Shown here: piece by piece, positions 13,425 through 40,362 of the stretch
How the letters are laid out: every line of letters begins with the position of its first letter
Numbering within the stretch: the stretch's first letter is position 1
From: Ilex aquifolium
Lineage: Eukaryota > Streptophyta > Magnoliopsida > Aquifoliales > Aquifoliaceae
Length of the DNA stretch: 64,000 bases
NCBI GenBank assembly: GCA_951799425.1
Contig: OX637394.1
Location: forward strand, 34,384,001-34,448,000
Direction of reading: 5' to 3'
Made by a program: the position numbers and the translations under genes
Notes under the pieces: model-generated
The model's input: only the letters and a program-made list of their open reading frames with translations
Database searches by the model: none
What the model was told of the DNA's origin: nothing

Positions 13425-15253
13425 TGATGACCACATAATATTGCATATTTGAAGGGCTCATTACATGCATTTTAACTCAACTTTTGCATTTAAGTACTTA
13501 GAGTTAGCCGAAATTATGAATAATGTTGATATTTTGATGTTGCAAGTTTTTATTGCTTAAATCATGTATTTTAGGACATTGCAACTATGTTGGATGTGTG
13601 GTGAAGGCATGGACACAATACATGAAGAATTGGAGGCTTAAAAGTGAAGAAATCAAGAAGGCATTGGTGCTTGGGAACAAGGGCACCAGTTGCAGCAACA
13701 ATTGGAAGCACTGCCTCAGAACTCCTCCATTTTGACCATGATCTACTCAGAATTTGGAAAAGTTCAAAACATGAAAGTTGTATATATGAGTGTCTTCTGT
13801 TTAGTTTCAAAATTTCAGTCCAATCCAACGGTTAGATCAAGAGTTATACCGATTCTACCAAAGGTGGTCCAGTGCAGAAAAAACAGTACCGGTACCTAGT
13901 ACCGGTACTCCGGACCTTCTGGTCGCGAAAACAGCCTGTAACTCAACTTTGAGGCTTGGGGGTCCCACCTACACTTCTCCCACGCCTATCCCAACATTTC
14001 CTTACACATTTGCAGGCCTCCTACACTCAAGTGGAAGACTTTGAAGGCCAATGCATTGATGGAGGATGGGAGAGAAGTGGGCTGCCAGGGCTATGATCTC
14101 CTAGCCTGTCAAGCCATCCATTCAGCCCTCTCTTGATGGGAGCTCGTACACACAGCTAGGGGGGAGCCTCTTGGACGTTTTGGCAAGTCTCCACACAACA
14201 TATATTGAACATTAGAAGCTTGTATAGGAGTTGGCTACCTAAGCTTAGTTTTTGCTCCATTGAGGAAGAAGATGAATTGTGTAATGTAATTTCGTTTTTG
14301 CATTTCTTCCATCCATTTCACTTGTAATCCTTTGTAAGAACTTGGTAAGCTTCATTTAATGTATTTAATGTTATTCACTGCAAGTTCATTTCAAGTTTAA
14401 TCTTTCATTTTAGCTTTCACCATTGTTGCTTCCATGTTTTCTTCATTTCTTAGCTTAAAATGGGTATTGCATATTTTCCTTCATAGCTTTAGATTTCTTG
14501 CTTCAAGTTAAGTTTCATGCTTTAAATTTCCATTTCTCTTCCATGTCCATCTACATTATGCTTGTCTTGCATTTTTAATATGAGTAGCTAGGATTTAAGT
14601 TGGTTAATCCAAGGGAAAATTCCTCTTGGGAATACCATTTTCAACTCTTCTTCATTCCTCCCTTTAGAGTCAAATGGTTCGGTTTGACGGGGTTGAGAGT
14701 GGATGAGTTGGTGAGCCTTTGATATTCCGTAGGCCTAGTCACGGTTTATGCTTAGATACTCACCAATCTCGTCCCTAGCTTCCCCCGAATCAATCGTTCA
14801 TTCATGCTCAATCGAAGGAAGGCTTTGAGTTGATTTGGTATTCCCATTGGAATGAACCATTTGGATTAGCCAACACTTGCTTTCTTGCATTTTCATTTTG
14901 AACAAAACTCACCAAAACACAAATACAAGATTTTACACTTTCTTTTTTTTTTTGCAAAATCACTTTCACAAAACTCCATTTCCTTCCCTGAGGAGACGAC
15001 CTTGGAATATTTTCCAAGTAAAACACACGACCACAAAAGACTCCTTGCGATTGGGGAGCACTTTTGTTCACCACACACGCATTTCATTTCATAACATTTT
15101 GTTCATTCCATTCATTTCCATCACCATTCCATTGTTGCCTAATCTTTTGCATCATTCCGAGTGAGAGTGACACTCACCCATTCCTATAAGCCATACACAC
15201 ATTTAGGGATGATGTTTAGAGGTTAGGATACAACAACGTTTTCCAATCAATCA
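13425..15253 (+). mobile_element. Array A LTR 1 (left outer)
   Basis: 1829 bp, starting TGATGACCAC and ending AATCAATCA. It has private variants against LTRs 2-6: GACC for GAGC at the start, gcaactatg, gaaggcatgg, a T-run at 14944-14953 in place of ttttcactttt, and caatcgaagg. Palindromes GTACCGGTAC are at 13886-13895 and 13899-13908. Confidence 0.95.
15161..15177 (+). other. Putative RNA stem-loop near the A LTR end
   Basis: GTGAG-AGTGACA-CTCAC, a 5-bp stem with a 7-nt loop, 76 bp before the LTR end. The same loop sits on a GGGAG/CTCCC stem in the two A-family solo LTRs (44798-44814 and 55501-55517, minus sense), so the second base pair changed T-A to G-C. It repeats in all array LTRs. Confidence 0.55.
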
Positions 15254-15256
15254 TTT

Positions 15257-15274
15257 TGGCGCCGTTGCCGGGGA
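15257..15274 (+). promoter_or_regulatory. Primer binding site, tRNA-Asp (unit 1)
   Basis: TGGCGCCGTTGCCGGGGA, 3 bases after the LTR. From memory of plant tRNA-Asp(GUC), this is the exact complement of its last 18 bases including CCA. tRNA-Asp priming is typical of Athila/Tat-type elements. Confidence 0.9.
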
Positions 15275-15385
15275 AGGTAAAGCGTCGAGTTCGAGGGTGA
15301 TTTTGGGACGGCATAAGGTAAGTCTTGTGATTTTCATCACGGGCCAAGGTATGTCGTCTAACTTGTAAATATTTTGTTTTATATA

Positions 15386-16222
15386 ATGTCTTATAATTAT
15401 TATGAAAATGTATCAAATGCCCCTTATTATGAAAATGTGTGTGAGATTTGTGATGACCTTGGGCTCATCTCTTGTATGTGCCAAATAAATTATCCGGTTC
15501 AAGACTTTGCATGCGAAAACTTTTATCCCAACCATTATGTTTCACCGAGTTATCCGAGTTATGGTTGGGAGAATGAACCGTATAATTTTCCATCCAATCT
15601 CACACCACCAAATGAATTTTGTCATTATCCAACGTATGAGGACTTAACCGAACAAGCATTGGAAAATACTTTTTGCGAGTTTATGCAATGCCAATTGGAA
15701 TTCAATGCCCAATTAGGCGAGTTTATGCAAAGCCAAATGGAATTCAATGCCCAAATAACTCAACAACTTGATACATTGACTAATGCTATAATTGTTATGC
15801 ATGAAGAACAACACCTTGAGCATAGTCAATATATTGAGAATGATCCCCCCAATGAAATGCATATTAATGTTGAATCTCCCACCACTCTAGATTGTGAAAC
15901 ATTTAATGAAGTTATTATCTCACATGAGGCTAATGAGCCCAATGTCATTTTGCCATCTTTGAGTGGTGTTGAGATTCACATTTCTCAACTTGGGGAGGGC
16001 ATTGCAATGGAGTCAAGTGTTGAAACTTGTAAAGAAAAATTGTATACTCCATTTGTGGGATTGCATAAACTTGCCTACACATCTATTTGGTTGAGAATTT
16101 TTAATCAACATCCTTTATATGTTTGGATAGATGGTTTAAGAAGGGCATTGATGCAACAAAAAAATTTTAAAATCAAAAAAATCCATGGGCGTAAGGTCAT
16201 ATCCGAATTGAAGCCGGATTGA
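15386..16222 (+). CDS. Orphan ORF of element A, 278 codons (unit 1)
   Basis: The first ATG after the primer site opens a 278-codon frame; an in-frame TTG 12 bases earlier is less likely. I recognise no domain. Visible features: a Tyr/Asn-rich N-terminus with a repeated YYENV, a Cys cluster (CEICDD...CMCQ) at about residues 18-32, and a tandem 14-residue repeat EFMQCQLEFNAQLG/EFMQSQMEFNAQIT near 100-130. An acidic middle follows, then a basic C-terminus (KNFKIKKIHGRK). The helical Gln-rich repeat faintly recalls the linker after plant Ty3/gypsy Gag, so a Gag remnant or a Gag-like packaging protein is possible. No CCHC knuckle, protease or RT motif is present. The frame is open in all five units. 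Confidence 0.6.
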   Translation: MSYNYYENVSNAPYYENVCEICDDLGLISCMCQINYPVQDFACENFYPNHYVSPSYPSYGWENEPYNFPSNLTPPNEFCHYPTYEDLTEQALENTFCEFMQCQLEFNAQLGEFMQSQMEFNAQITQQLDTLTNAIIVMHEEQHLEHSQYIENDPPNEMHINVESPTTLDCETFNEVIISHEANEPNVILPSLSGVEIHISQLGEGIAMESSVETCKEKLYTPFVGLHKLAYTSIWLRIFNQHPLYVWIDGLRRALMQQKNFKIKKIHGRKVISELKPD

Positions 16223-16296
16223 CATGAGCCCTTGTTGTTTTGTTTCCATGTACATAGTAGTTAGATATCTTTTATTGTCATATTTTTATTTTTCAT

Positions 16297-16321
16297 GTCG
16301 TTGTAGTATAATGGTGAGTAT
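16297..16321 (+). other. tRNA-Asp 5'-end fragment (unit 1)
   Basis: A 25-base stretch starting GTCGTTGTAG and ending GGTGAGTAT that, from memory, matches the first 25 bases of plant tRNA-Asp(GUC) with about two differences. It covers the acceptor 5' strand and D-arm and includes a fit to the Pol III A-box (TAGTATAATGG). No B-box follows and the anticodon arm is absent, so it is not a tRNA gene. It lies 75 bp after the ORF stop. The same tRNA species matches the primer site of this element. Confidence 0.75.
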
Positions 16322-16384
16322 CATTGTAGTGAAGTTTTTAACATAAAGCTTGTTTAAGAATCAGGAAGCACACAAAGCAGAACA

Positions 16385-16494
16385 GTACCGATACTCGGTA
16401 CCGGTACCCAGTACTGGTACTAAAAGTCTACTGGAATCGCAGTACCGGTACTCGGTACTGGTACCAAATGGTACCGGTACCCAGTACCGGTACT
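16385..16494. repeat. Internal palindrome cluster (unit 1), derived from a J-type LTR
   Basis: Repeated GTACCGGTAC palindromes. This block and the following ~85 bp (caatctctgcaatgctgctcc) align with the minus strand of LTR J (1001 down to about 820), in the sense orientation of both. It is therefore an LTR U3 segment captured inside the internal region. Confidence 0.8.
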
Positions 16495-18266
16495 GTTTGC
16501 CTGACAGACCCAATCTCTGCAATGCTGCTCCACCTGCTTTGAGGGCATCACCAGCATTTCTCCCCCATGTTCTAGTCTAAGTTGGGGGGTGTAAATGAGC
16601 TTTGTGTGTTTCATTTTCTCTTTTATGTTTATATATATATATATAAAAAAAAAAAGGGGTATCTCATTTCCCATTTTACCTTCATTGTTTTCATTGCATG
16701 ACTCCTTGTGCATTGAGGACAATGCATAGTTTAAGTTGGGGGGTGAGGTGCACCATTCACATGTTCCACCACTTTGTGTATAGAATAAGTTGGAAATGTG
16801 AAAATTTTGAAAAATTTTGGACAATTTTTGTGAAAAATAGTCAATATTGAACTATATTCCTCTATCCTAATTGTTATGGGATTTGTGAATTGCTTGATCT
16901 TCATTTTGAACTTTGAATACATGAGCACATTATAGAAGTTTATCCTATGCTTGAGTATCACATATGTGTTTTCTTTCAAACTCAACCATTGTGCACCTTG
17001 AATGTGTAATTTGGACAATTTACGGATTGAGTTCACATTTGAGTGCTTCACATGAATAGTGGAGATGAGTAAGTACCCGTGTGAGCTTTAGTGCCAATTC
17101 TTGTTGGAAGGAACTTACATTTACTCAAGGAACAATTTTTCAAATTCTAAATTTGTTCAATAATCTCATTATGCTTGTTTTGGTTAGGTGTATTTGGGTA
17201 GTTGATTGACTTTGTCTTGATTGTACAATGCTCTCCCATGCCTATCTAGAAATGATCTTAGGCCATCTTTGATGCTTTGAGCCTTAGCCTTTTTCTTGTG
17301 AAATTTTATCCCTAGTGCCATGATTGAGCCTTAATTGAATTCGTTTCTATGCCACACATGTAACCAAGCCAATGAAAATGATAAATATCTACCTTACCTT
17401 GGTTGTTCCTAGTGCTAAGTTGGGTGATGATAAAAGAAAATGAATGATGGTGTGAAAAATCAAACAAAAGGGATGAAGGATGTTGAAACTCAAAAGAGTT
17501 CAATGGAAAAAGAATGAAAATCCAAGAAAAGGAGTGAAAAAGGAGAAAAAGAATGAGAAAAAGAAAAGGGAAAAATGTAAAGGAAAAGAAAGAAAAGAAA
17601 CAAAGGGTGTGGTGATGGTGTGAAAATCAAAATCCCATAAAAGGGAAGTGTTTTTCTAAGATTAAGGTCATTCACCCGGAACAACCCTCTTTGTTATCCT
17701 ATATCCTTCGTTTCCCTTACCACAACATCACCCCAAGGCCTCATTACAACCCATGAAAGTCCTAAAAGATCTAGAGAAGCATGGGGGATGCATACGTTTA
17801 AAAGAACAAGAGAAGTTGATTTTGCTATCTAATGCCCTAGCATTCCTTTCATGAGATTATGCCAAGGTTGTTTCATTTTTATGCATACTTCATTTTTGGA
17901 TTATATGTGAGCATACTTTGTGTTGTGCACAAGATTCCATCTCACATATACACATGGAGAGCATGCCCGGATAATCATAGTGTTATTCATTTTGAGAGAA
18001 CACCCTTGGTGAGTTTTTGCATCGAAGCTTAATGTGGATGGCCAAAGTAAATGTGAACTCCATTGTGTAAATGTTTAAATTACATGTTCATTTCACACAC
18101 ACACGAGTTTTGAAAGGAAATGTGTATGTGGATACTCTAGAATAGCATTTACGGCTATGATATGTCTCACGCGTGATTTGTTCGGGTGTTTGAACCAAGT
18201 TGTTTTTAGTATTCCATTGCTAATTAAGATAAGGGAATATATTTTAAATATTGGATACTATGAAAA

Positions 18267-18367
18267 GAAGTTTGTAGGTACCTTCACTGGAAACCTTCAC
18301 GAGACAAAACTCGTCCACTAGGGATCACCTAGGGGTTTAAAGGCTTGTTGCATGTGCTAAATGCAAT
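18267..18367 (+). other. Conserved 101-bp block upstream of the A polypurine tract
   Basis: Differs at 6 of 101 positions from element C 44169-44269, although sequence on either side is only loosely alignable. It contains ACGAG-ACAAAA-CTCGT and CTAGG-GATCA-CCTAG, two potential small hairpins, and no ORF. Other units: 23295-23395, 28322-28422, 33349-33449, 38348-38448. Confidence 0.8.
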
Positions 18368-18417
18368 ATCGGAATTAGTATAGTTTTATTTTTTGTTTTC
18401 TTGCTTTTTACATTTTG

Positions 18418-18453
18418 TTTGCTAGGGACTAGCAAAGCTTAAGTTGGGGGGTG
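18418..18453 (+). promoter_or_regulatory. A polypurine tract with upstream hairpin (unit 1)
   Basis: Perfect 8-bp stem TTTGCTAG-GGA-CTAGCAAA (18418-18436), then 17 bases (GCTTAAGTTGGGGGGTG) to the 3' LTR start. The purine tract would prime plus-strand DNA. Hairpins of the other units: 23446-23464, 28473-28491, 33500-33518, 38499-38517. Confidence 0.85.
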
Positions 18454-20281
18454 TGATGAGCACATAATATTGCATATTTGAAGGGCTCATTACATGCATT
18501 TTAACTCAACTTTTGCATTTAAGTACTTAGAGTTAGCCGAAATTATGAATAATGTTGATATTTTGATGTTGCAAGTTTTTATTGCTTAAATCATGTATTT
18601 TAGGACATTCCAACTATGTTGGATGTGTGGTGAATGCATGGACACAATACATGAAGAATTGGAGGCTTAAAAGTGAAGAAATCAAGAAGGCATTGGTGCT
18701 TGGGAACAAGGGCACCAGCTGCAGCAACAATTGGAAGAACTGTCTCGGAATTCCTCCATTTTTACCATGATCTACTCAGAATTTGGAAAAGTTCAAAACA
18801 TGAAAGTTGTAGATATGGGTGTCCTCTGTTTGGTGTCAAATTTCAGCCCAATCCAACGGTTAGATCAAGAGTTATGCCGATTCTACCGAAGGTGGTCCAG
18901 TGCAGAAAAAACAGTACCGGTACCTAGTACCGGTACTCCGGACCTTCTGGTCGCGAAAACAGCCTGTAACTCAACTTTGAGGCTTGGGGGTCCCACCTAC
19001 ACTTCTCCCACGCCTATCCCAACATTTCCTTACACATTTGCAGGCCTCCTACACTCAAGTGGAAGACTTTGAAGGCCAATGCATTGATGGAGGATGGGAG
19101 AGAAGTGGGCTGCCAGGGCTATGATCTCCTAGCCTGTCAAGCCATCCATTCAGCCCTCTCTTGATGGGAGCTCGTACACACAGCTAGGGGGGAGCCTCTT
19201 GGACGTTTTGGCAAGTCTCCACACAGCATATATTGAACATTACAAGCTTGTATAGGAGTTGGCTACCTAAGCTTAGTTTTTGCTCCATTGAGGAAGAAGA
19301 TGAATAGTGTAATGTAATTTCGTTTTTGCATTTCTTCCATCCATTTCACTTGTAATCCTTTGTAAGAACTTGGTAAGCTTCATTTAATGTATTTAATGTT
19401 ATTCACTGCAAGTTCATTTCAAGTTTAATCTTTCATTTTAGCTTTCACCATTGTTGCTTCCATGTTTTCTTCATTTCTTAGCTTAAAATGGGTATTGCAT
19501 ATTTTCCTTCATAGCTTTAGATTTCTTGCTTCAAGTTAAGTTTCATGCTTTAAATCTCCATTTCTCTTCCATGCCCATCTACATTATGCTTGTCTTGCAT
19601 TTTTAATATGAGTAGCTAGGATTTAAGTTGGTTAATCCAAGGGAAAATTCCTCTTGGGAATACCATTTTCAACTCTTCTTCATTCCTCCCTTTAGAGTCA
19701 AATGGTTCGGTTTGACGGGGTTGAGAGTGGATGAGTTGGTGAGCCTTTGATATTCCGTAGGCCTAGTCACGGTTTATGCTTAGATACTCACCAATCTCGT
19801 CCCTAGCTTCCCCCGAATCAATCGTTCATTCATGCTCAATCGGAGGAAGGCTTTGAGTTGATTTGGTATTCCCATTGGAATGAACCATTTGGATTAGCCA
19901 ACACTTGCTTTCTTGCATTTTCATTTTGAACAAAACTCACCAAAACACAAATACAAGATTTTACACTTTCTTTTCACTTTTGCAAAATCACTTTCACAAA
20001 ACTCCATTTCCTTCCCTGAGGAGACGACCTTGGAATATTTTCCAAGTAAAACACACGACCACAAAAGACTCCTTGCGATTGGGGAGCACTTTTGTTCACC
20101 ACACACGCATTTCATTTCATAACATTTTGTTCATTCCATTCATTTCCATCACCATTCCATTGTTGCCTAATCTTTTGCATCATTCCGAGTGAGAGTGACA
20201 CTCACCCATTCCTATAAGCCATACACACATTTAGGGATGATGTTTAGAGGTTAGGATACAACAACGTTTTCCAATCAATCA
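18454..20281 (+). mobile_element. Array A LTR 2
   Basis: 1828 bp. At the start it carries variants of the right outer LTR (GAGC, ccaactatg, gaatgcatgg, ctgtctcgg); at the end it carries variants of the left outer LTR (gaaccatttgg, actccatttcc). Palindromes at 18914-18936. Confidence 0.95.
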
Positions 20282-20284
20282 TTT

Positions 20285-20302
20285 TGGCGCCGTTGCCGGG
20301 GA
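20285..20302 (+). promoter_or_regulatory. Primer binding site, tRNA-Asp (unit 2)
   Basis: Identical to the unit 1 site. Confidence 0.9.
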
Positions 20303-20413
20303 AGGTAAAGCGTCGAGTTCGAGGGTGATTTTGGGACGGCATAAGGTAAGTCTTGTGATTTTCATCACGGGCCAAGGTATGTCGTCTAACTTGTAAATAT
20401 TTTGTTTTATATA

Positions 20414-21250
20414 ATGTCTTATAATTATTATGAAAATGTATCAAATGCCCCTTATTATGAAAATGTGTGTGAGATTTGTGATGACCTTGGGCTCATCTCT
20501 TGTATGTGCCAAATAAATTATCCGGTTCAAGACTTTGCATGCGAAAACTTTTATCCCAACCATTATGTTTCACCGAGTTATCCGAGTTATGGTTGGGAGA
20601 ATGAACCGTATAATTTTCCATCCAATCTCACACCACCAAATGAATTTTGTCATTATCCAACGTATGAGGACTTAACCGAACAAGCATTGGAAAATACTTT
20701 TTGCGAGTTTATGCAATGCCAATTGGAATTCAATGCCCAATTAGGCGAGTTTATGCAAAGCCAAATGGAATTCAATGCCCAAATAACTCAACAACTTGAT
20801 ACATTGACTAATGCTATAATTGTTATGCATGAAGAACAACACCTTGAGCATAGTCAATATATTGAGAATGATCCCCCCAATGAAATGCATATTAATGTTG
20901 AATCTCCCACCACTCTAGATTGTGAAACATTTAATGAAGTTATTATCTCACATGAGGCTAATGAGCCCAATGTCATTTTGCCATCTTTGAGTGGTGTTGA
21001 GATTCACATTTCTCAACTTGGGGAGGGCATTGCAATGGAGTCAAGTGTTGAAACTTGTAAAGAAAAATTGTATACTCCATTTGTGGGATTGCATAAACTT
21101 GCCTACACATCTATTTGGTTGAGAATTTTTAATCAACATCCTTTATATGTTTGGATAGATGGTTTAAGAAGGGCATTGATGCAACAAAAAAATTTTAAAA
21201 TCAAAAAAATCCATGGGCGTAAGGTCATATCCGAATTGAAGCCGGATTGA
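20414..21250 (+). CDS. Orphan ORF of element A (unit 2)
   Basis: Predicted product identical to that of unit 1. Confidence 0.6.
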   Translation: MSYNYYENVSNAPYYENVCEICDDLGLISCMCQINYPVQDFACENFYPNHYVSPSYPSYGWENEPYNFPSNLTPPNEFCHYPTYEDLTEQALENTFCEFMQCQLEFNAQLGEFMQSQMEFNAQITQQLDTLTNAIIVMHEEQHLEHSQYIENDPPNEMHINVESPTTLDCETFNEVIISHEANEPNVILPSLSGVEIHISQLGEGIAMESSVETCKEKLYTPFVGLHKLAYTSIWLRIFNQHPLYVWIDGLRRALMQQKNFKIKKIHGRKVISELKPD

Positions 21251-23481
21251 CATGAGCCCTTGTTGTTTTGTTTCCATGTACATAGTAGTTAGATATCTTT
21301 TATTGTCATATTTTTATTTTTCATGTCGTTGTAGTATAATGGTGAGTATCATTGTAGTGAAGTTTTTAACATAAAGCTTGTTTAAGAATCAGGAAGCACA
21401 CAAAGCAGAACAGTACCGATACTCGGTACCGGTACCCAGTACTGGTACTAAAAGTCTACTGGAATCGCAGTACCGGTACTCGGTACTGGTACCAAATGGT
21501 ACCGGTACCCAGTACCGGTACTGTTTGCCTGACAGACCCAATCTCTGCAATGCTGCTCCACCTGCTTTGAGGGCATCACCAGCATTTCTCCCCCATGTTC
21601 TAGTCTAAGTTGGGGGGTGTAAATGAGCTTTATGTGTTTCATTTTCTCTTTTATGTTTATATATATATATATAAAAAAAAAAAGGGGTATCTCATTTCCC
21701 ATTTTACCTTCATTGTTTTCATTGCATGACTCCTTGTGCATTGAGGACAATGCATAGTTTAAGTTGGGGGGTGAGGTGCACCATTCACATGTTCCACCAC
21801 TTTGTGTATAGAATAAGTTGGAAATGTGAAAATTTTGAAAAATTTTGGACAATTTTTGTGAAAAATAGTCAATATTGAACTATATTCCTCTATCCTAATT
21901 GTTATGGGATTTGTGAATTGCTTGATCTTCATTTTGAACTTTGAATACATGAGCACATTATAGAAGTTTATCCTATGCTTGAGTATCACATATGTGTTTT
22001 CTTTCAAACTCAACCATTGTGCACCTTGAATGTGTAATTTGGACAATTTACGGATTGAGTTCACATTTGAGTGCTTCACATGAATAGTGGAGATGAGTAA
22101 GTACCCGTGTGAGCTTTAGTGCCAATTCTTGTTGGAAGGAACTTACATTTACTCAAGGAACAATTTTTCAAATTCTAAATTTGTTCAATAATCTCATTAT
22201 GCTTGTTTTGGTTAGGTGTATTTGGGTAGTTGATTGACTTTGTCTTGATTGTACAATGCTCTCCCATGCCTATCTAGAAATGATCTTAGGCCATCTTTGA
22301 TGCTTTGAGCCTTAGCCTTTTTCTTGTGAAATTTTATCCCTAGTGCCATGATTGAGCCTTAATTGAATTCGTTTCTATGCCACACATGTAACCAAGCCAA
22401 TGAAAATGATAAATATCTACCTTACCTTGGTTGTTCCTAGTGCTAAGTTGGGTGATGATAAAAGAAAATGAATGATGGTGTGAAAAATCAAACAAAAGGG
22501 ATGAAGGATGTTGAAACTCAAAAGAGTTCAATGGAAAAAGAATGAAAATCCAAGAAAAGGAGTGAAAAAGGAGAAAAAGAATGAGAAAAAGAAAAGGGAA
22601 AAATGTAAAGGAAAAGAAAGAAAAGAAACAAAGGGTGTGGTGATGGTGTGAAAATCAAAATCCCATAAAAGGGAAGTGTTTTTCTAAGATTAAGGTCATT
22701 CACCCGGAACAACCCTCTTTGTTATCCTATATCCTTCGTTTCCCTTACCACAACATCACCCCAAGGCCTCATTACAACCCATGAAAGTCCTAAAAGATCT
22801 AGAGAAGCATGGGGGATGCATACGTTTAAAAGAACAAGAGAAGTTGATTTTGCTATCTAATGCCCTAGCATTCCTTTCATGAGATTATGCCAAGGTTGTT
22901 TCATTTTTATGCATACTTCATTTTTGGATTATATGTGAGCATACTTTGTGTTGTGCACAAGATTCCATCTCACATATACACATGGAGAGCATGCCCGGAT
23001 AATCATAGTGTTATTCATTTTGAGAGAACACCCTTGGTGAGTTTTTGCATCGAAGCTTAATGTGGATGGCCAAAGTAAATGTGAACTCCATTGTGTAAAT
23101 GTTTAAATTACATGTTCATTTCACACACACACGAGTTTTGAAAGGAAATGTGTATGTGGATACTCTAGAATAGCATTTACGGCTATGATATGTCTCACGC
23201 GTGATTTGTTCGGGTGTTTGAACCAAGTTGTTTTTAGTATTCCATTGCTAATTAAGATAAGGGAATATATTTTAAATATTGGATACTATGAAAAGAAGTT
23301 TGTAGGTACCTTCACTGGAAACCTTCACGAGACAAAACTCGTCCACTAGGGATCACCTAGGGGTTTAAAGGCTTGTTGCATGTGCTAAATGCAATATCGG
23401 AATTAGTATAGTTTTATTTTTTGTTTTCTTGCTTTTTACATTTTGTTTGCTAGGGACTAGCAAAGCTTAAGTTGGGGGGTG
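21251..23481 (+). mobile_element. Non-coding 3' region of unit 2
   Basis: Same contents as unit 1; palindrome cluster 21413-21522. A private variant is gctttatgtg near 21629. Confidence 0.8.
21325..21349 (+). other. tRNA-Asp 5'-end fragment (unit 2)
   Basis: Identical to unit 1. Confidence 0.75.
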
Positions 23482-25309: not shown

Positions 25310-25312
25310 TTT

Positions 25313-25330
25313 TGGCGCCGTTGCCGGGGA
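25313..25330 (+). promoter_or_regulatory. Primer binding site, tRNA-Asp (unit 3)
   Basis: Identical to the unit 1 site. Confidence 0.9.
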
Positions 25331-25441
25331 AGGTAAAGCGTCGAGTTCGAGGGTGATTTTGGGACGGCATAAGGTAAGTCTTGTGATTTTCATCACGGGC
25401 CAAGGTATGTCGTCTAACTTGTAAATATTTTGTTTTATATA

Positions 25442-28508: not shown

Positions 28509-30336
28509 TGATGAGCACATAATATTGCATATTTGAAGGGCTCATTACATGCATTTTAACTCAACTTTTGCATTTAAGTACTTAGAGTTAGCCGAAATTA
28601 TGAATAATGTTGATATTTTGATGTTGCAAGTTTTTATTGCTTAAATCATGTATTTTAGGACATTCCAACTATGTTGGATGTGTGGTGAATGCATGGACAC
28701 AATACATGAAGAATTGGAGGCTTAAAAGTGAAGAAATCAAGAAGGCATTGGTGCTTGGGAACAAGGGCACCAGCTGCAGCAACAATTGGAAGAACTGTCT
28801 CGGAATTCCTCCATTTTTACCATGATCTACTCAGAATTTGGAAAAGTTCAAAACATGAAAGTTGTAGATATGGGTGTCCTCTGTTTGGTGTCAAATTTCA
28901 GCCCAATCCAACGGTTAGATCAAGAGTTATGCCGATTCTACCGAAGGTGGTCCAGTGCAGAAAAAACAGTACCGGTACCTAGTACCGGTACTCCGGACCT
29001 TCTGGTCGCGAAAACAGCCTGTAACTCAACTTTGAGGCTTGGGGGTCCCACCTACACTTCTCCCACGCCTATCCCAACATTTCCTTACACATTTGCAGGC
29101 CTCCTACACTCAAGTGGAAGACTTTGAAGGCCAATGCATTGATGGAGGATGGGAGAGAAGTGGGCTGCCAGGGCTATGATCTCCTAGCCTGTCAAGCCAT
29201 CCATTCAGCCCTCTCTTGATGGGAGCTCGTACACACAGCTAGGGGGGAGCCTCTTGGACGTTTTGGCAAGTCTCCACACAGCATATATTGAACATTACAA
29301 GCTTGTATAGGAGTTGGCTACCTAAGCTTAGTTTTTGCTCCATTGAGGAAGAAGATGAATAGTGTAATGTAATTTCGTTTTTGCATTTCTTCCATCCATT
29401 TCACTTGTAATCCTTTGTAAGAACTTGGTAAGCTTCATTTAATGTATTTAATGTTATTCACTGCAAGTTCATTTCAAGTTTAATCTTTCATTTTAGCTTT
29501 CACCATTGTTGCTTCCATGTTTTCTTCATTTCTTAGCTTAAAATGGGTATTGCATATTTTCCTTCATAGCTTTAGATTTCTTGCTTCAAGTTAAGTTTCA
29601 TGCTTTAAATCTCCATTTCTCTTCCATGCCCATCTACATTATGCTTGTCTTGCATTTTTAATATGAGTAGCTAGGATTTAAGTTGGTTAATCCAAGGGAA
29701 AATTCCTCTTGGGAATACCATTTTCAACTCTTCTTCATTCCTCCCTTTAGAGTCAAATGGTTCGGTTTGACGGGGTTGAGAGTGGATGAGTTGGTGAGCC
29801 TTTGATATTCCGTAGGCCTAGTCACGGTTTATGCTTAGATACTCACCAATCTCGTCCCTAGCTTCCCCCGAATCAATCGTTCATTCATGCTCAATCGGAG
29901 GAAGGCTTTGAGTTGATTTGGTATTCCCATTGGAATGAACCATTTGGATTAGCCAACACTTGCTTTCTTGCATTTTCATTTTGAACAAAACTCACCAAAA
30001 CACAAATACAAGATTTTACACTTTCTTTTCACTTTTGCAAAATCACTTTCACAAAACTCCATTTCCTTCCCTGAGGAGACGACCTTGGAATATTTTCCAA
30101 GTAAAACACACGACCACAAAAGACTCCTTGCGATTGGGGAGCACTTTTGTTCACCACACACGCATTTCATTTCATAACATTTTGTTCATTCCATTCATTT
30201 CCATCACCATTCCATTGTTGCCTAATCTTTTGCATCATTCCGAGTGAGAGTGACACTCACCCATTCCTATAAGCCATACACACATTTAGGGATGATGTTT
30301 AGAGGTTAGGATACAACAACGTTTTCCAATCAATCA
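28509..30336 (+). mobile_element. Array A LTR 4
   Basis: 1828 bp, same variant pattern as LTRs 2 and 3. Confidence 0.95.
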
Positions 30337-30339
30337 TTT

Positions 30340-30357
30340 TGGCGCCGTTGCCGGGGA
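30340..30357 (+). promoter_or_regulatory. Primer binding site, tRNA-Asp (unit 4)
   Basis: Identical to the unit 1 site. Confidence 0.9.
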
Positions 30358-30468
30358 AGGTAAAGCGTCGAGTTCGAGGGTGATTTTGGGACGGCATAAG
30401 GTAAGTCTTGTGATTTTCATCACGGGCCAAGGTATGTCGTCTAACTTGTAAATATTTTGTTTTATATA

Positions 30469-31305
30469 ATGTCTTATAATTATTATGAAAATGTATCAAA
30501 TGCCCCTTATTATGAAAATGTGTGTGAGATTTGTGATGACCTTGGGCTCATCTCTTGTATGTGCCAAATAAATTATCCGGTTCAAGACTTTGCATGCGAA
30601 AACTTTTATCCCAACCATTATGTTTCACCGAGTTATCCGAGTTATGGTTGGGAGAATGAACCGTATAATTTTCCATCCAATCTCACACCACCAAATGAAT
30701 TTTGTCATTATCCAACGTATGAGGACTTAACCGAACAAGCATTGGAAAATACTTTTTGCGAGTTTATGCAATGCCAATTGGAATTCAATGCCCAATTAGG
30801 CGAGTTTATGCAAAGCCAAATGGAATTCAATGCCCAAATAACTCAACAACTTGATACATTGACTAATGCTATAATTGTTATGCATGAAGAACAACACCTT
30901 GAGCATAGTCAATATATTGAGAATGATCCCCCCAATGAAATGCATATTAATGTTGAATCTCCCACCACTCTAGATTGTGAAACATTTAATGAAGTTATTA
31001 TCTCACATGAGGCTAATGAGCCCAATGTCATTTTGCCATCTTTGAGTGGTGTTGAGATTCACATTTCTCAACTTGGGGAGGGCATTGCAATGGAGTCAAG
31101 TGTTGAAACTTGTAAAGAAAAATTGTATACTCCATTTGTGGGATTGCATAAACTTGCCTACACATCTATTTGGTTGAGAATTTTTAATCAACATCCTTTA
31201 TATGTTTGGATAGATGGTTTAAGAAGGGCATTGATGCAACAAAAAAATTTTAAAATCAAAAAAATCCATGGGCGTAAGGTCATATCCGAATTGAAGCCGG
31301 ATTGA
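30469..31305 (+). CDS. Orphan ORF of element A (unit 4)
   Basis: Predicted product identical to that of unit 1. Confidence 0.6.
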   Translation: MSYNYYENVSNAPYYENVCEICDDLGLISCMCQINYPVQDFACENFYPNHYVSPSYPSYGWENEPYNFPSNLTPPNEFCHYPTYEDLTEQALENTFCEFMQCQLEFNAQLGEFMQSQMEFNAQITQQLDTLTNAIIVMHEEQHLEHSQYIENDPPNEMHINVESPTTLDCETFNEVIISHEANEPNVILPSLSGVEIHISQLGEGIAMESSVETCKEKLYTPFVGLHKLAYTSIWLRIFNQHPLYVWIDGLRRALMQQKNFKIKKIHGRKVISELKPD

Positions 31306-33535
31306 CATGAGCCCTTGTTGTTTTGTTTCCATGTACATAGTAGTTAGATATCTTTTATTGTCATATTTTTATTTTTCATGTCGTTGTAGTATAATGGTGA
31401 GTATCATTGTAGTGAAGTTTTTAACATAAAGCTTGTTTAAGAATCAGGAAGCACACAAAGCAGAACAGTACCGATACTCGGTACCGGTACCCAGTACCGG
31501 TACTAAAAGTCTACTGGAATCGCAGTACCGGTACTCGGTACTGGTACCAAATGGTACCGGTACCCAGTACCGGTACTGTTTGCCTGACAGACCCAATCTC
31601 TGCAATGCTGCTCCACCTGCTTTGAGGGCATCACCAGCATTTCTCCCCCATGTTCTAGTCTAAGTTGGGGGGTGTAAATGAGCTTTGTGTGTTTAATTTT
31701 CTCTTTTATGTTTATATATATATATAAAAAAAAAAAAGGGGTATCTCATTTCCCATTTTACCTTCATTGTTTTCATTGCATGACTCCTTGTGCATTGAGG
31801 ACAATGCATAGTTTAAGTTGGGGGGTGAGGTGCACCATTCACATGTTCCACCACTTTGTGTATAGAATAAGTTGGAAATGTGAAAATTTTGAAAAATTTT
31901 GGACAATTTTTGTGAAAAATAGTCAATATTGAACTATATTCCTCTATCCTAATTGTTATGGGATTTGTGAATTGCTTGATCTTCATTTTGAACTTTGAAT
32001 ACATGAGCACATTATAGAAGTTTATCCTATGCTTGAGTATCACATATGTGTTTTCTTTCAAACTCAACCATTGTGCACCTTGAATGTGTAATTTGGACAA
32101 TTTACGGATTGAGTTCACATTTGAGTGCTTCACATGAATAGTAGAGATGAGTAAGTACCCGTGTGAGCTTTAGTGTCAATTCTTGTTGGAAGGAACTTAC
32201 ATTTACTCAAGGAACAATTTTTCAAATTCTAAATTTGTTCAATAATCTCATTATGCTTGTTTTGGTTAGGTGTATTTGGGTAGTTGATTGACTTTGTCTT
32301 GATTGTACAATGCTCTCCCATGCCTATCTAGAAATGATCTTAGGCCATCTTTGATGCTTTGAGCCTTAGCCTTTTTCTTGTGAAATTTTATCCCTAGTGC
32401 CATGATTGAGCCTTAATTGAATTCGTTTCTATGCCACACATGTAACCAAGCCAATGAAAATGATAAATATCTACCTTACCTTGGTTGTTCCTAGTGCTAA
32501 GTTGGGTGATGATAAAAGAAAAGGAATGATGGTGTGAAAAATCAAACAAAAGGGATGAAGGATGTTGAAACTCAAAAGAGTTCAATGGAAAAAGAATGAA
32601 AATCCAAGAAAAGGAGTGAAAAAGGAGAAAAAGAATGAGAAAAAGAAAAGGGAAAAATGTAAAGGAAAAGAAAGAAAAGAAACAAAGGGTGTGGTGATGG
32701 TGTGAAAATCAAAATCCCATAAAAGGGAAGTGTTTTTCTAAGATTAAGGTCATTCACCCGGAACAACCCTCTTTGTTATCCTATATCCTTCGTTTCCCTT
32801 ACCACAACATCACCCCAAGGCCTCATTACAACCCATGAAAGTCCTAAAAGATCTAGAGAAGCATGGGGGATGCATACGTTTAAAAGAACAAGAGAAGTTG
32901 ATTTTGCTATCTAATGCCCTAGCATTCCTTTCATGAGATTATGCCAAGGTTGTTTCATTTTTATGCATACTTCATTTTTGGATTATATGTGAGCATACTT
33001 TGTGTTGTGCACAAGATTCCATCTCACATATACACATGGAGAGCATGCCCGGATAATCATAGTGTTATTCATTTTGAGAGAACACCCTTGGTGAGTTTTT
33101 GCATCGAAGCTTAATGTGGATGGCCAAAGTAAATGTGAACTCCATTGTGTAAATGTTTAAATTACATGTTCATTTCACACACACACGAGTTTTGAAAGGA
33201 AATGTGTATGTGGATACTCTAGAATAGCATTTACGGCTATGATATGTCTCACGCGTGATTTGTTCGGGTGTTTGAACCAAGTTGTTTTTAGTATTCCATT
33301 GCTAATTAAGATAAGGGAATATATTTTAAATATTGGATACTATGAAAAGAAGTTTGTAGGTACCTTCACTGGAAACCTTCACGAGACAAAACTCGTCCAC
33401 TAGGGATCACCTAGGGGTTTAAAGGCTTGTTGCATGTGCTAAATGCAATATCGGAATTAGTATAGTTTTATTTTTTGTTTTCTTGCTTTTTACATTTTGT
33501 TTGCTAGGGACTAGCAAAGCTTAAGTTGGGGGGTG
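31306..33535 (+). mobile_element. Non-coding 3' region of unit 4
   Basis: As unit 1, with palindrome cluster 31468-31577. It shares tagagatgag (near 32142) and aaaggaatgatgg (near 32520) with unit 5 only. Confidence 0.8.
31380..31404 (+). other. tRNA-Asp 5'-end fragment (unit 4)
   Basis: Identical to unit 1. Confidence 0.75.
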
Positions 33536-35363
33536 TGATGAGCACATAATATTGCATATTTGAAGGGCTCATTACATGCATTTTAACTCAACTTTTGCAT
33601 TTAAGTACTTAGAGTTAGCCGAAATTATGAATAATGTTGATATTTTGATGTTGCAAGTTTTTATTGCTTAAATCATGTATTTTAGGACATTCCAACTATG
33701 TTGGATGTGTGGTGAATGCATGGACACAATACATGAAGAATTGGAGGCTTAAAAGTGAAGAAATCAAGAAGGCATTGGTGCTTGGGAACAAGGGCACCAG
33801 CTGCAGCAACAATTGGAAGAACTGTCTCGGAATTCCTCCATTTTTACCATGATCTACTCAGAATTTGGAAAAGTTCAAAACATGAAAGTTGTAGATATGG
33901 GTGTCCTCTGTTTGGTGTCAAATTTCAGCCCAATCCAACGGTTAGATCAAGAGTTATGCCGATTCTACCGAAGGTGGTCCAGTGCAGAAAAAACAGTACC
34001 GGTACCTAGTACCGGTACTCCGGACCTTCTGGTCGCGAAAACAGCCTGTAACTCAACTTTGAGGCTTGGGGGTCCCACCTACACTTCTCCCACGCCTATC
34101 CCAACATTTCCTTACACATTTGCAGGCCTCCTACACTCAAGTGGAAGACTTTGAAGGCCAATGCATTGATGGAGGATGGGAGAGAAGTGGGCTGCCAGGG
34201 CTATGATCTCCTAGCCTGTCAAGCCATCCATTCAGCCCTCTCTTGATGGGAGCTCGTACACACAGCTAGGGGGGAGCCTCTTGGACGTTTTGGCAAGTCT
34301 CCACACAGCATATATTGAACATTACAAGCTTGTATAGGAGTTGGCTACCTAAGCTTAGTTTTTGCTCCATTGAGGAAGAAGATGAATAGTGTAATGTAAT
34401 TTCGTTTTTGCATTTCTTCCATCCATTTCACTTGTAATCCTTTGTAAGAACTTGGTAAGCTTCATTTAATGTATTTAATGTTATTCACTGCAAGTTCATT
34501 TCAAGTTTAATCTTTCATTTTAGCTTTCACCATTGTTGCTTCCATGTTTTCTTCATTTCTTAGCTTAAAATGGGTATTGCATATTTTCCTTCATAGCTTT
34601 AGATTTCTTGCTTCAAGTTAAGTTTCATGCTTTAAATCTCCATTTCTCTTCCATGCCCATCTACATTATGCTTGTCTTGCATTTTTAATATGAGTAGCTA
34701 GGATTTAAGTTGGTTAATCCAAGGGAAAATTCCTCTTGGGAATACCATTTTCAACTCTTCTTCATTCCTCCCTTTAGAGTCAAATGGTTCGGTTTGACGG
34801 GGTTGAGAGTGGATGAGTTGGTGAGCCTTTGATATTCCGTAGGCCTAGTCACGGTTTATGCTTAGATACTCACCAATCTCGTCCCTAGCTTCCCCCGAAT
34901 CAATCGTTCATTCATGCTCAATCGGAGGAAGGCTTTGAGTTGATTTGGTATTCCCATTGGAATGAACCCTTTGGATTAGCCAACACTTGCTTTCTTGCAT
35001 TTTCATTTTGAACAAAACTCACCAAAACACAAATACAAGATTTTACACTTTCTTTTCACTTTTGCAAAATCACTTTCACAAAACTCCCTTTCCTTCCCTG
35101 AGGAGACGACCTTGGAATATTTTCCAAGTAAAACACACGACCACAAAAGACTCCTTGCGATTGGGGAGCACTTTTGTTCACCACACACGCATTTCATTTC
35201 ATAACATTTTGTTCATTCCATTCATTTCCATCACCATTCCATTGTTGCCTAATCTTTTGCATCATTCCGAGTGAGAGTGACACTCACCCATTCCTATAAG
35301 CCATACACACATTTAGGGATGATGTTTAGAGGTTAGGATACAACAACGTTTTCCAATCAATCA
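33536..35363 (+). mobile_element. Array A LTR 5
   Basis: 1828 bp. Like LTRs 2-4 at the start, but it keeps right-LTR variants further along (gaaccctttgg, actccctttcc) before switching to left-LTR type at ttttccaagt. Its switch point therefore lies closer to its 3' end. Confidence 0.95.
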
Positions 35364-35366
35364 TTT

Positions 35367-35384
35367 TGGCGCCGTTGCCGGGGA
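35367..35384 (+). promoter_or_regulatory. Primer binding site, tRNA-Asp (unit 5)
   Basis: Identical to the unit 1 site. Confidence 0.9.
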
Positions 35385-35495
35385 AGGTAAAGCGTCGAGT
35401 TCGAGGGTGATTTTGGGACGGCATAAGGTAAGTCTTGTGATTTTCATCACGGGCCAAGGTATGTCGTCTAACTTGTAAATATTTTGTTTTATATA

Positions 35496-36332
35496 ATGTC
35501 TTATAATTATTATGAAAATGTATCAAATGCCCCTTATTATGAAAATGTGTGTGAGATTTGTGATGACCTTGGGCTCATCTCTTGTATGTGCCAAATAAAT
35601 TATCCGGTTCAAGACTTTGCATGCGAAAACTTTTATCCCAACCATTATGTTTCACCGAGTTATCCGAGTTATGGTTGGGAGAATGAACCGTATAATTTTC
35701 CATCCAATCTCACACCACCAAATGAATTTTGTCATTATCCAACGTATGAGGACTTAACCGAACAAGCATTGGAAAATACTTTTTGCGAGTTTATGCAATG
35801 CCAATTGGAATTCAATGCCCAATTAGGCGAGTTTATGCAAAGCCAAATGGAATTCAATGCCCAAATAACTCAACAACTTGATACATTGACTAATGCTATA
35901 ATTGTTATGCATGAAGAACAACACCTTGAGCATAGTCAATATATTGAGAATGATCCCCCCAATGAAATGCATATTAATGTTGAATCTCCCACCACTCTAG
36001 ATTGTGAAACATTTAATGAAGTTATTATCTCACATGAGGCTAATGAGCCCAATGTCATTTTGCCATCTTTGAGTGGTGTTGAGATTCACATTTCTCAACT
36101 TGGGGAGGGCATTGCAATGGAGTCAAGTGTTGAAACTTGTAAAGAAAAATTGTATACTCCATTTGTGGGATTGCATAAACTTGCCTACACATCTATTTGG
36201 TTGAGAATTTTTAATCAACATCCTTTATATGTTTGGATAGATGGTTTAAGAAGGGCATTAATGCAACCAAAAAATTTTAAAATCAAAAAAATCCATGGGC
36301 GTAAGGTCATATCCGAATTGAAGCCGGATTGA
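35496..36332 (+). CDS. Orphan ORF of element A (unit 5)
   Basis: One predicted change, Gln to Pro near the C-terminus (ALMQPKNF), plus a silent change beside it. Confidence 0.6.
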   Translation: MSYNYYENVSNAPYYENVCEICDDLGLISCMCQINYPVQDFACENFYPNHYVSPSYPSYGWENEPYNFPSNLTPPNEFCHYPTYEDLTEQALENTFCEFMQCQLEFNAQLGEFMQSQMEFNAQITQQLDTLTNAIIVMHEEQHLEHSQYIENDPPNEMHINVESPTTLDCETFNEVIISHEANEPNVILPSLSGVEIHISQLGEGIAMESSVETCKEKLYTPFVGLHKLAYTSIWLRIFNQHPLYVWIDGLRRALMQPKNFKIKKIHGRKVISELKPD

Positions 36333-38534
36333 CATGAGCGCTTGTTGTTTTGTTTCCATGTACATAGTAGTTAGATCTCTTTTATTGTCATATTTTTATT
36401 TTTCATGTCGTTGTAGTATAATGGTGAGTATCATTGTAGTGAAGTTTTTAACATAAAGCTTGTTTAAGAATCAGGAAGCAGACAAAGCAGAACAGTACCG
36501 GTACTCGGTACCGGTACCAACTGGTACTGGTACTAAAAGTCTACTGGAATCGCAGTACCGGTACCCAGTACCGATACTGTTTGCCTGACAGACCCAATCT
36601 CTGCAATGCTGCTCCACCTACTTTGAGGGCATCACCAGCATTTCTCCCCCATGTTCTAGTCTAAGTTGGGGGGTGTAAATGAGCTTTGTGTGTTTCATTT
36701 TCTCTTTTATGTTTATATATATATATAAAAAAAAAAGGGGTATCTCATTTCCCATTTTACCTTCATTGTTTTCATTGCATGACTCCTTGTGCATTGAGGA
36801 CAATGCATAGTTTAAGTTGGGGGGTGAGGTGCACCATTCACATGTTCCACCACTTTGTGTATAGAATAAGTTGGAAATGTGAAAATTTTGAAAAATTTTG
36901 GACAATTTTTGTGAAAAATAGTCAATATTGAACTATATTCCTCTATCCTAATTGTTATGGGATTTGTGAATTGCTTGATCTTCATTTTGAACTTTGAATA
37001 CATGAGCACATTATAGAAGTTTATCCTATGCTTGAGTATCACATATGTGTTTTCTTTCAAACTCAACCATTGTGCACCTTGAATGTGTAATTTGGACAAT
37101 TTACGGATTGAGTTCACATTTGAGTGCTTCACATGAATAGTAGAGATGAGTAAGTACCCGTGTGAGCTTTAGTGCCAATTCTTGTTGGAAGGAACTTACA
37201 TTTACTCAAGGAACAATTTTTCAAATTCTAAATTTGTTCAATAATCTCATTATGCTTGTTTTGGTTAGGTGTATTTGGGTAGTTGATTGACTTTGTCTTG
37301 ATTGTACAATGCTCTCCCATGCCTATCTAGAAATGATCTTAGGCCATCTTTGATGCTTTGAGCCTTAGCCTTTTTCTTGTGAAATTTTATCCCTAGTGCC
37401 ATGATTGAGCCTTAATTGAATTCGTTTCTATGCCACACATGTAACCAAGCCAATGAAAATGATAAATATCTACCTTACCTTGGTTGTTCCTAGTGCTAAG
37501 TTGGGTGATGATAAAAGAAAAGGAATGATGGTGTGAAAAATCAAACAAAAGGGATGAAGGATGTTGAAACTCAAAAGAGTTCAATGGAAAAAGAATGAAA
37601 ATCCAAGAAAAGGAGTGAAAAAGGAGAAAAAGAATGAGAAAAAGAAAAGGGAAAAATGTAAAGGAAAAGAAAGAAAAGAAACAAAGGGTGTGGTGATGGT
37701 GTGAAAATCAAAATCCCATAAAAGGGAAGTGTTTTTCTAAGATTAAGGTCATTCACCCGGAACAACCCTCTTTGTTATCCTATATCCTTCGTTTCCCTTA
37801 CCACAACATCACCCCAAGGCCTCATTACAACCCATGAAAGTCCTAAAAGATCTAGAGAAGCATGGGGGATGCATACGTTTAAAAGAACAAGAGAAGTTGA
37901 TTTTGCTATCTAATGCCCTAGCATTCCTTTCATGAGATTATGCCAAGGTTGTTTCATTTTTATGCATACTTCATTTTTGGATTATATGTGAGCATACTTT
38001 GTGTTGTGCACAAGATTCCATCTCACATATACACATGGAGAGCATGCCCGGATAATCATAGTGTTATTCATTTTGAGAGAACACCCTTGGTGAGTTTTTG
38101 CATCGAAGCTTAATGTGGATGGCCAAAGTAAATGTGAACTCCATTGTGTAAATGTTTAAATTACATGTTCATTTCACACACACACGAGTTTTGAAAGGAA
38201 ATGTGTATGTGGATACTCTAGAATAGCATTTACGGCTATGATATGTCTCATGCGTGATTTGTTCGGGTGTTTGAACCAAGTTGTTTTTAGTATTCCATTG
38301 CTAATTAAGATAAGGGAATATATTTTAAATATTGGATACTATGAAAAGAAGTTTGTAGGTACCTTCACTGGAAACCTTCACGAGACAAAACTCGTCCACT
38401 AGGGATCACCTAGGGGTTTAAAGGCTTGTTGCATGTGCTAAATGCAATATCGGAATTAGTATAGTTTTATTTTTTGTTTTCTTGCTTTTTACATTTTGTT
38501 TGCTAGGGACTAGCAAAGCTTAAGTTGGGGGGTG
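36333..38534 (+). mobile_element. Non-coding 3' region of unit 5
   Basis: The most divergent unit. The palindrome cluster (36495-36578) is about 27 bp shorter and differently arranged, and a private ctcatgcgtg occurs near 38248. Hairpin and polypurine tract are intact. Confidence 0.8.
36407..36431 (+). other. tRNA-Asp 5'-end fragment (unit 5)
   Basis: Identical to unit 1 although the flanks here carry substitutions (gagcgcttg, agatctctt). Confidence 0.75.
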
Positions 38535-40362
38535 TGATGAGCACATAATATTGCATATTTGAAGGGCTCATTACATGCATTTTAACTCAACTTTTGCATT
38601 TAAGTACTTAGAGTTAGCCGAAATTATGAATAATGTTGATATTTTGATGTTTCATGTTTTTATTGATTAAATCATGTATTTTAGGACATTCCAACTATGT
38701 TGGATGTGTGGTGAATGCATGGACACAATACATGAAGAATTGGAGGCTTAAAAGTGAAGAAATCAAGAAGGCATTGGTGCTTGGGAACAAGGGCACCAGC
38801 TGCAGCAACAATTGGAAGAACTGTCTCGGACTTCCTCCATTTTTACCATGAGATACTCAGAATTTGGAAACGTTCAAAACATGAAAGTTGTAGATATGGG
38901 TGTCCTCTGTTTGGTGTCAAAATTTCAGCCCAATCCAACGGTTAGATCAAGAGTTATGCCGATTCTACCGAAGGTGGTCCAGTGCAGAAAAACAGTACCG
39001 GTACCTAGTACCGGTACTCCGGACCTTCTGGTCGCGAAAACAGCCTGTAACTCAACTTTGAGGCTTGGGGGTCCCACCTACACTTCTCCCACGCCTATCC
39101 CAACATTTCCTTACACATTTGCAGGCCTCCTACACTCAAGTGGAAGACTTTGAAGGCCAATGCATTGATCGAGGATGGGAGAGAAGTGGGCTGCCAGGGC
39201 TATGATCTCCTAGCCTGTCAAGCCATCCATTCAGCCCTCTCTTGATGGGAGCTCGTACACACAGCTAGGGGGGAGCCTCTTGGACGTTTTGGCAAGTCTA
39301 CACACAGCATATATTGAACATTAGAAGCTTGTATAGGAGTTGGCTACCTAAGCTTAGTTTTTGCTCCATTGAGGAAGAAGATGAATAGTGTAATGTAATT
39401 TCGTTTTTGCATTTCTTCCATCCATTTCACTTGTAATCCTTTGTAAGAACTTGGTAAGCTTCATTTAATGTATTTAATGTTATTCACTGCAAGTTCATTT
39501 CAAGTTTAATCTTTCATTTTAGCTTTCACCATTGTTGCTTCCATGTTTTCTTCATTTCTTAGCTTAAAATGGGTATTGCATATTTTCCTTCATAGCTTTA
39601 GATTTCTTGCTTCAAGTTAAGTTTCATGCTTTAAATCTCCATTTCTCTTCCAAGTCCATCTACATTATGCTTGTCTTGCATTTTTAATATGAGTAGCTAG
39701 GATTTAAGTTGGTTAATCCAAGGGAAAATTCCTCTTGGGAATACCATTTTCAACTCTTCTTCATTCCTCCCTTTAGAGTCAAATGGTTCGGTTTGACGGG
39801 GTTGAGAGTGGATGAGTTGGTGAGCCTTTGATATTCCGTAGGCCTAGTCACGGTTTATGCTTAGATACTCACCAATCTCGTCCCTAGCTTCCCCCGAATC
39901 AATCGTTCATTCATGCTCAATCGGAGGAAGGCTTTGAGTTGATTTGATATTCCCATTGGAATGAACCCTTTGGATTAGCCAACACTTGCTTTCTTGCATT
40001 TTCATTTTGAACAAAACTCACCAAAACACAAATACAAGATTTTACACTTTCTTTTCACTTTTGCAAAATCACTTTCACAAAACTCCCTTTCCTTCCCTGA
40101 GGAGACGACCTTGGAATATTTTACAAGTAAAACACACGACCACAAAAGACTCCTTGCGATTGGGGAGCACTTTTGTTCACCACACACGCATTTCATTTCA
40201 TAACATTTTGTTCATTCCATTCATTTCCATCACCATTCCATTGTTGCCTAATCTTTTGCATCATTCCGAGTGAGAGTGACACTCACCCATTCCTATAAGC
40301 CATACACACATTTAGGGATGATGTTTAGAGGTTAGGATACACCAACGTTTTCCAATCAATCA
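38535..40362 (+). mobile_element. Array A LTR 6 (right outer)
   Basis: 1828 bp, with private variants (tttcatgtttttattgatt, ggacttcctcc, tttgatattcc, ttttacaag, acaccaacg). It ends AATCAATCA at 40362 against the CCTGT duplication. Confidence 0.95.

Follow-up and report, generated by a model that had tools for sequence, protein, structure and literature searches.

A five-unit tandem LTR retrotransposon in Ilex aquifolium and the record of LTR exchange in related arrays

Organization of the array and of the element that hosts it

The window analyzed here is a 64-kb stretch of the Ilex aquifolium genome (C4:34384001-34448000), and genome-wide searches were performed on the 800-Mb assembly of 103 contigs. 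Self-comparison and LTR extraction revealed six LTRs of 1.83 kb and five internal regions of 3.2 kb in strict alternation at positions 13425-40362 (Table 1), as the initial annotation of this DNA had described. The LTRs (L1 to L6, from 5′ to 3′) measure 1829 bp for L1 and 1828 bp for each of L2 to L6, and the internal regions I1 to I5 measure 3200, 3200, 3199, 3199 and 3171 bp, so that one LTR (1828 bp) and one internal region (3200 bp) make up a unit of about 5028 bp. All six LTRs were also recovered by the LTR search of the genome, at C4:34397425-34424362. They begin with TGATGA and end with ATCA; TTT followed by the primer-binding site lies directly 3′ of each of L1 to L5, and AAGTTGGGGGGTG directly 5′ of each of L2 to L6. 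The sequence CCTGT abuts the array at both outer ends and is absent from every inner junction. The block thus has an LTR at both ends of the alternation and one target-site duplication enclosing the whole, which is the build of a tandem LTR retrotransposon. The window contains no N. The count of five units is that of the assembly, and the variants found between units argue for the presence of the array in the real genome.

The array lies within element B, another Ty3/gypsy element. Removal of the array together with one copy of CCTGT restored a single open frame of 1338 residues from stop to stop, which runs on the minus strand across the insertion site. The two parts of this frame match the Retrotrans_gag model on one side and the RVP_2, RVT_1, RNase H and integrase models on the other (the integrase core match being under its curated cut-off), and the continuous frame and these domain matches place the array in the gag part of B. 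The proposal of a single CCTGT duplication in the gag frame of B, left by one integration that became a five-unit array with shared LTRs, is consequently borne out: there is one duplication, and the host frame is otherwise continuous. The block is a single integration that grew. Several nested, related retroelements are carried by the window. Each LTR of B contains a minisatellite (102-bp units at 8281-8744 and 101-bp units at 41960-42312), with unequal copy numbers. Another minisatellite, of 80-bp units, lies at 48187-48731, and a 1.9-kb segment occurs twice, at 50227-52131 and 57911-59803, with 97% identity.

An ORF of 282 aa is present in all five units. It had no Pfam match at an E value of 0.001, three weak matches being found below the cut-off, with E values up to 5, and comparison with solved structures gave nothing convincing (three matches, E 0.29 to 0.71). 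A protein search retrieved two relatives. One, with 64% identity across 100% of the query, contains zinc knuckles; the other, with 70% identity across 99%, is without a Pfam match. No pol domain was detected in the ORF, and no second ORF of at least 250 aa in the internal regions. The unit is taken as a non-autonomous Ty3/gypsy element with a putatively gag-derived ORF. It is probably Athila-like, given its primer-binding site, which we take to be complementary to tRNA-Asp; the window itself contains no tRNA gene. TRIM elements are defined, within certain size limits, by very short LTRs and a very short internal region. With an LTR of 1828 bp and a unit of about 5028 bp the element is of a different kind, in agreement with its initial description as non-TRIM.

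Table 1. Features of the window (positions in the window) and tandem arrays of related elements at other loci
Feature	Position	Strand	Remarks
Element B, LTR	7665..9702	-	outer flank TTATA
Element B, protease-RT-RNase H-integrase part of the interrupted frame	10284..13436	-	
Target-site duplication CCTGT, left copy	13420..13424		
LTR 1 (L1), outer 5′	13425..15253	+	26 substitutions relative to L2-L4
Internal region 1 (I1)	15254..18453	+	primer-binding site about 15257-15274; G-rich tract 18441-18453; 282-aa ORF 15374-16222
LTR 2 (L2)	18454..20281	+	identical to LTR 3 and LTR 4
Internal region 2 (I2)	20282..23481	+	ORF 20402-21250
LTR 3 (L3)	23482..25309	+	
Internal region 3 (I3)	25310..28508	+	ORF 25430-26278
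LTR 4 (L4)	28509..30336	+	
Internal region 4 (I4)	30337..33535	+	ORF 30457-31305
LTR 5 (L5)	33536..35363	+	2 substitutions relative to L2-L4, both common to L6
Internal region 5 (I5)	35364..38534	+	most divergent; 29-bp deletion; ORF 35484-36332
LTR 6 (L6), outer 3′	38535..40362	+	17 substitutions relative to L2-L4
Target-site duplication CCTGT, right copy	40363..40367		
Element B, gag part of the interrupted frame	40356..41207	-	
Element B, other LTR	41397..43236	-	outer flank TTATA
Related array	C2:28.77		five LTRs; duplication ATGTG
Related array	C11:1.16		four LTRs; duplication GTAAA
Related array	C1:50.0		four LTRs; duplication GGCGC
Related array	C1:27.29		three LTRs; duplication GCAGG
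Related array	C1:27.44		three LTRs; 3′ LTR truncated
Related array	C1:24.04		three LTRs; 3′ LTR truncated
Related array	C9:14.77		three LTRs; duplication CCTTG

Uneven divergence between the units

L2, L3 and L4 are identical, and L5, L6 and L1 depart from them at 2, 17 and 26 sites, respectively. The two outer LTRs differ from each other at 39 of 1828 sites (2.13%). Private sites number 24 in L1 and 13 in L6, and none was found in L2, L3, L4 or L5. A similar gradient is seen in the internal regions: I1 and I2 differ by one substitution, I2 and I3 by three and an indel, and I3 and I4 by eight, so that I1 to I3 show 1 to 3 mutual differences and I4 stands 6 to 8 differences from them. I5 differs from the other four by 13 to 15 differences and by indels including the 29-bp deletion. 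Its specific substitutions and this deletion all fall within about 390 bp (36260-36650) around a TACCGG repeat tract. The identity of L2 to L4 and the near-identity of I1 to I3 point to the 5′ part as the place where units were gained most recently.

To polarise the LTR alleles, 32 LTRs of the family, taken from other loci, served as the outgroup. Six left sites (157, 182, 285, 290, 310 and 371) are derived in L2-L6, A1434 and A1553 are common to L1-L4, and an extra A at 453 is common to L1-L5. Furthermore, L2-L5 have in common a deletion at 384 and C1121, while G790 is found in L1 and L6 and is absent from L2-L5. Of the derived alleles, those at 290, 310, 1434 and 1553 were encountered in 1, 3, 4 and 1 of the 32 outgroup sequences, respectively, and the remainder in none. 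In the internal regions, where two to seven outgroup copies were informative per site, derived alleles at 1014, 1118, 1138 and 2917 set I1-I4 against I5; T2188 is present in I1-I3, A1808 in I4 and I5, and T1162 in I1-I3 and I5. The polarised order fits an exchange between LTRs, the alleles of L2-L6 lying all on the left (157-371) and those of L1-L4 and L1-L5 on the right (1434 and 1553; A453). By our own arithmetic, the chance of six left and three right sites falling in perfect order is 1 in 84. G790, A1808 and T1162 misfit a stepwise exchange and need extra changes or short conversions, and an unpolarised order test on this array alone was not significant (AUC 0.57, p 0.24). The window locus alone does not decide the mechanism, and its record of crossovers is blurred.

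The divergence between L1 and L6 cannot be read as an insertion age. Element B hosts the array and is therefore older, yet its LTR pair differs at only 13 of 1840 sites (0.71%) versus 39 of 1828 for L1 and L6. Because the pair of the younger insertion is the more divergent, the record has been distorted by conversion or by uneven mutation. Tandem arrays thus mislead LTR dating, the outer LTRs here seeming older than the element in which they lie. Of the 39 differences, 24 fall in the first 452 bp. Hypermutation of this left quarter specific to the array is unsupported, since four ordinary full-length copies are also rich there, with 33 of their 75 LTR differences in the same 452 bp. The left 436 bp of L1 (13425-13860) contain 17 of the 26 differences between L1 and L2; family alleles are kept there where L2-L6 are derived, and many changes are L1's own, so that this part of L1 is possibly a conversion tract from another copy. 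Ectopic conversion of LTRs is documented in humans (PMC4921805). Three stretches of related LTR in the window (44740-46588, 55418-57313 and 63572-63995) were rejected as donors, as they agree at few diagnostic sites. L6 carries 16 substitutions that are absent from the 32 other family LTRs, and 15 of these are transversions, as compared with 121 of the 261 singletons among the 32; four of the 16 are common to L2-L5.

Related arrays and other copies of the family

The best 40 of 7932 LTR candidates were scored and represent a sample of the closest copies. All sites outside the window among these best 40 correspond to 29 loci, a count in which three longer versions of loci already included were dropped. 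Nineteen are solo LTRs with perfect 5-bp duplications and four are simple full-length elements with perfect outer duplications. The remainder comprise four partial LTR matches, the C9 array among them, one locus where two LTRs enclose no internal region, and one single LTR without a matching duplication. Recombination between LTRs is common in this family, as seen from the 19 solo LTRs of the 29 loci versus four simple full-length copies. At C8:24592937-24599010, two LTRs about 2.4 kb apart enclose no internal region and have the same left flanks and nearly the same right flanks; this is perhaps a duplicated solo-LTR segment.

A pattern for the internal-LTR junction, with at most two mismatches, gave 1603 matches in the genome, and the reversed control gave none. 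Among the 100 of these 1603 matches that were listed, seven neighbouring pairs on the same strand lie 4.87-5.27 kb apart. For distances of 4-6 kb a uniform model predicts 0.12 pairs (no more than 3 in any of 2000 runs), which is an underestimate if the family is clustered. Further pairs were found by the internal-region search among the best 40 of 5245 candidates. All seven clusters that were followed, with a spacing of 3.7 to 5.3 kb, proved to be tandem arrays of 2 to 4 units (Table 1); in the C2 and C1 arrays, the reading covered the LTRs and the junctions. A perfect 5-bp duplication flanks each of the six arrays with intact ends, the window array included. Since their LTRs are about 73-98% identical to those of the window, the sister arrays span related subfamilies. 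The survey of the genome for more LTR-internal junctions and longer arrays, which the initial annotation had recommended, was fruitful on the first count; on the second, no array of more than five units was present among the eight read. With its five units of about 5 kb, the window array exceeds the other seven in length; the eight are a sample and not a census. The view that a five-unit array of this kind is exceptional finds no support in this form: it is a long example of the already known tandem LTR retrotransposons, in a family that forms such arrays repeatedly. Same-strand internal copies at C9:19959513-19976628 (about 15 kb apart) and at C8:15274517-15303473 (about 27 kb apart) may be further, longer arrays.

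The exchange itself is recorded in the sister arrays. At C1:27.29, the first and last LTRs differ at 19 sites. Between 263 and 1116 the middle LTR agrees with the last LTR at all 12 sites, and between 1242 and 1807 it agrees with the first LTR at all 7; it has no private change, and the chance of such an order is 1 in 50388. This middle LTR is what a single exchange leaves as its gain product when the 5′ LTR of one copy recombines with the 3′ LTR on the sister chromatid or homologue. The exchange came after the two LTRs of this copy had diverged by about 1%. At C9, both units lack LTR positions 1651-1828 and internal positions 1-1186, including the primer-binding site, with the same junction in both, and 8 of 2017 sites distinguish their two internal regions. 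From what is known of retrotransposon biology, units without a primer-binding site would not be reverse transcribed, which indicates that the duplication at C9 was chromosomal and took place as DNA. At these two loci, the tandem formed after integration. The 3′ LTR of the C9 array (C9:14773251-14775070) is a mosaic that matches the family to about position 600 and continues as a different sequence, about 13-25% divergent; this divergent part implies that the locus also underwent ectopic exchange.

The prediction that a middle LTR resembles the 3′ LTR on its left and the 5′ LTR on its right was evaluated over the arrays. A left/right Fisher test covering seven arrays gave weak results (p 0.08 and 0.11), and the choice of the order test was made once these were known. 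In the order test, all six testable arrays lean as predicted (AUC 0.57 to 1.00). Five of the six are non-significant alone (p 0.15 to 0.25), and the combined p value is 0.0002, or 0.012 without C1:27.29. The C9 array was excluded from both tests because its 3′ LTR is divergent beyond about 600, and C1:24.04, whose last LTR is cut, was tested as far as position 943. The C1:50.0 array, with 0 against 3 sites, allowed no order test; its L2 matches L1 at all three.

Origin of the array and its known counterparts

We consider that repeated out-of-register recombination between LTRs, following one integration, made the window array, with a probability of about 0.78. Growth after integration fits the identity of the inner L2 to L4 while the outer LTRs are 2.1% apart; six co-inserted LTRs ageing equally would not give both this identity and 39 differences between L1 and L6 without later homogenisation. 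A non-autonomous Ty3/gypsy element, probably Athila-like, would have integrated once in the gag region of B and generated the CCTGT duplication. Its LTRs would then have taken part in misaligned exchanges between sister chromatids or homologues, the gain product being LTR-internal-LTR-internal-LTR and the reciprocal product a solo LTR. The new middle LTR would consist of 3′-LTR sequence on its left and 5′-LTR sequence on its right, and further exchanges would have raised the array to five units. We infer the order of these steps, the use of sisters or homologues and the same route at the window locus as at its sisters. The formation of an early middle LTR of this type may have been followed by another exchange, involving L1, once L1 carried A1434 and A1553. 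That would make L5 the earlier of the middle LTRs and place L2-L4 after it, I5 having split off first and I1-I3 last.

An unlikely alternative is that an extrachromosomal copy, circular or linear, recombined into the resident 5′ LTR and added younger inner units in one or few events. Yeast Ty multimers have been proposed to arise in a comparable way, from cDNA joining a resident element, as opposed to the exchange within one integrated copy envisaged here. Such an event accounts for the presence of G790 in L1 and L6 only, and for the mirror mosaic in which L1 has T1121 followed by A1434 and A1553 and L5 has C1121 followed by C1434 and C1553, with one crossover between 1121 and 1434. However, the extra A at 453 in L1 must then have arisen separately and the left part of L1 must be a foreign tract, the inner haplotype occurs in none of the 32 LTRs sampled outside the array, and the C1:27.29 and C9 arrays are accounted for by exchange inside a single integrated copy. 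Less probable still is a multi-unit cDNA that was reverse transcribed and inserted ready-made, a route discussed for tandems in PMC11899658 and compatible with the single duplication. LTRs of equal age predict similar private counts and not the 24, 13 and zero seen in L1, L6 and L2-L5, and the C9 units have no primer site. Moreover, a cDNA of 25 kb is implausibly long. An insertion of two ready-made units may nevertheless have preceded growth by LTR recombination. An assembly error that created the array or some of its units, as the identity of L2, L3 and L4 could suggest, is highly improbable in view of the absence of N, the internal units with variants of their own, the distinct outer LTRs, the clean duplication and host frame, and eight arrays of the same build at separate sites, six of them with perfect duplications.

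Tandem LTR retrotransposons are common and polymorphic in rice and are present in Arabidopsis, almond and cotton, Athila being enriched among the tandems of the latter three (PMC11899658). The TLI1, TLI2 and IDENTAM loci described in that study, mostly gypsy and polymorphic in unit number, resemble the window array in their alternating LTRs and internal regions, shared inner LTRs and one 5-bp duplication. The loci detailed in its text have two units, as compared with five units of a non-autonomous element here. The same study left undecided whether tandems are inserted as such or result from later recombination, the order of events not being establishable. The recombinant middle LTR and the units devoid of a primer site provide a direct test of this question, and recombinant middle LTRs are seen in the sister arrays. 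A literature search for recombinant or middle LTRs in such arrays found none; its coverage of subscription journals was poor, so that this is no proof of novelty. The record of the exchange in the sister arrays is the most useful result, and the family helps to answer where tandems come from.

Arrays with shared LTRs are also formed by TRIMs and by Cassandra: a maize TRIM array has up to five LTRs and four internal regions (PMC4717578) and a Cassandra array 13 LTRs by PCR (PMC7215508). Their units are of a few hundred bases, whereas those of the window are of about 5 kb with a 282-aa ORF. Yeast Ty multimers, as cited in PMC11899658, likewise are tandem elements with shared LTRs. The satellites derived from Ogre are another case of retroelement sequence becoming tandem DNA (PMC7004042); short internal subrepeats expand in that case, and whole elements with their LTRs repeat here.

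Tandem arrays alter local genome size and are a starting point for satellites derived from retroelements. Satellite DNA consists of many homogenised monomers in long arrays, and the block in the window, with five units only and with homogeneous inner LTRs, falls short of this. The initial suggestion of a satellite in the making describes a possible future at most. A bolder reading, which we put forward tentatively and hold well below that of growth by LTR recombination, is that the family habitually forms arrays through stepwise LTR exchange, located here near the 5′ end, so that the interior would be renewed and the outer LTRs would preserve the older record; the array might then represent an early proto-satellite whose order of growth can be read base by base.
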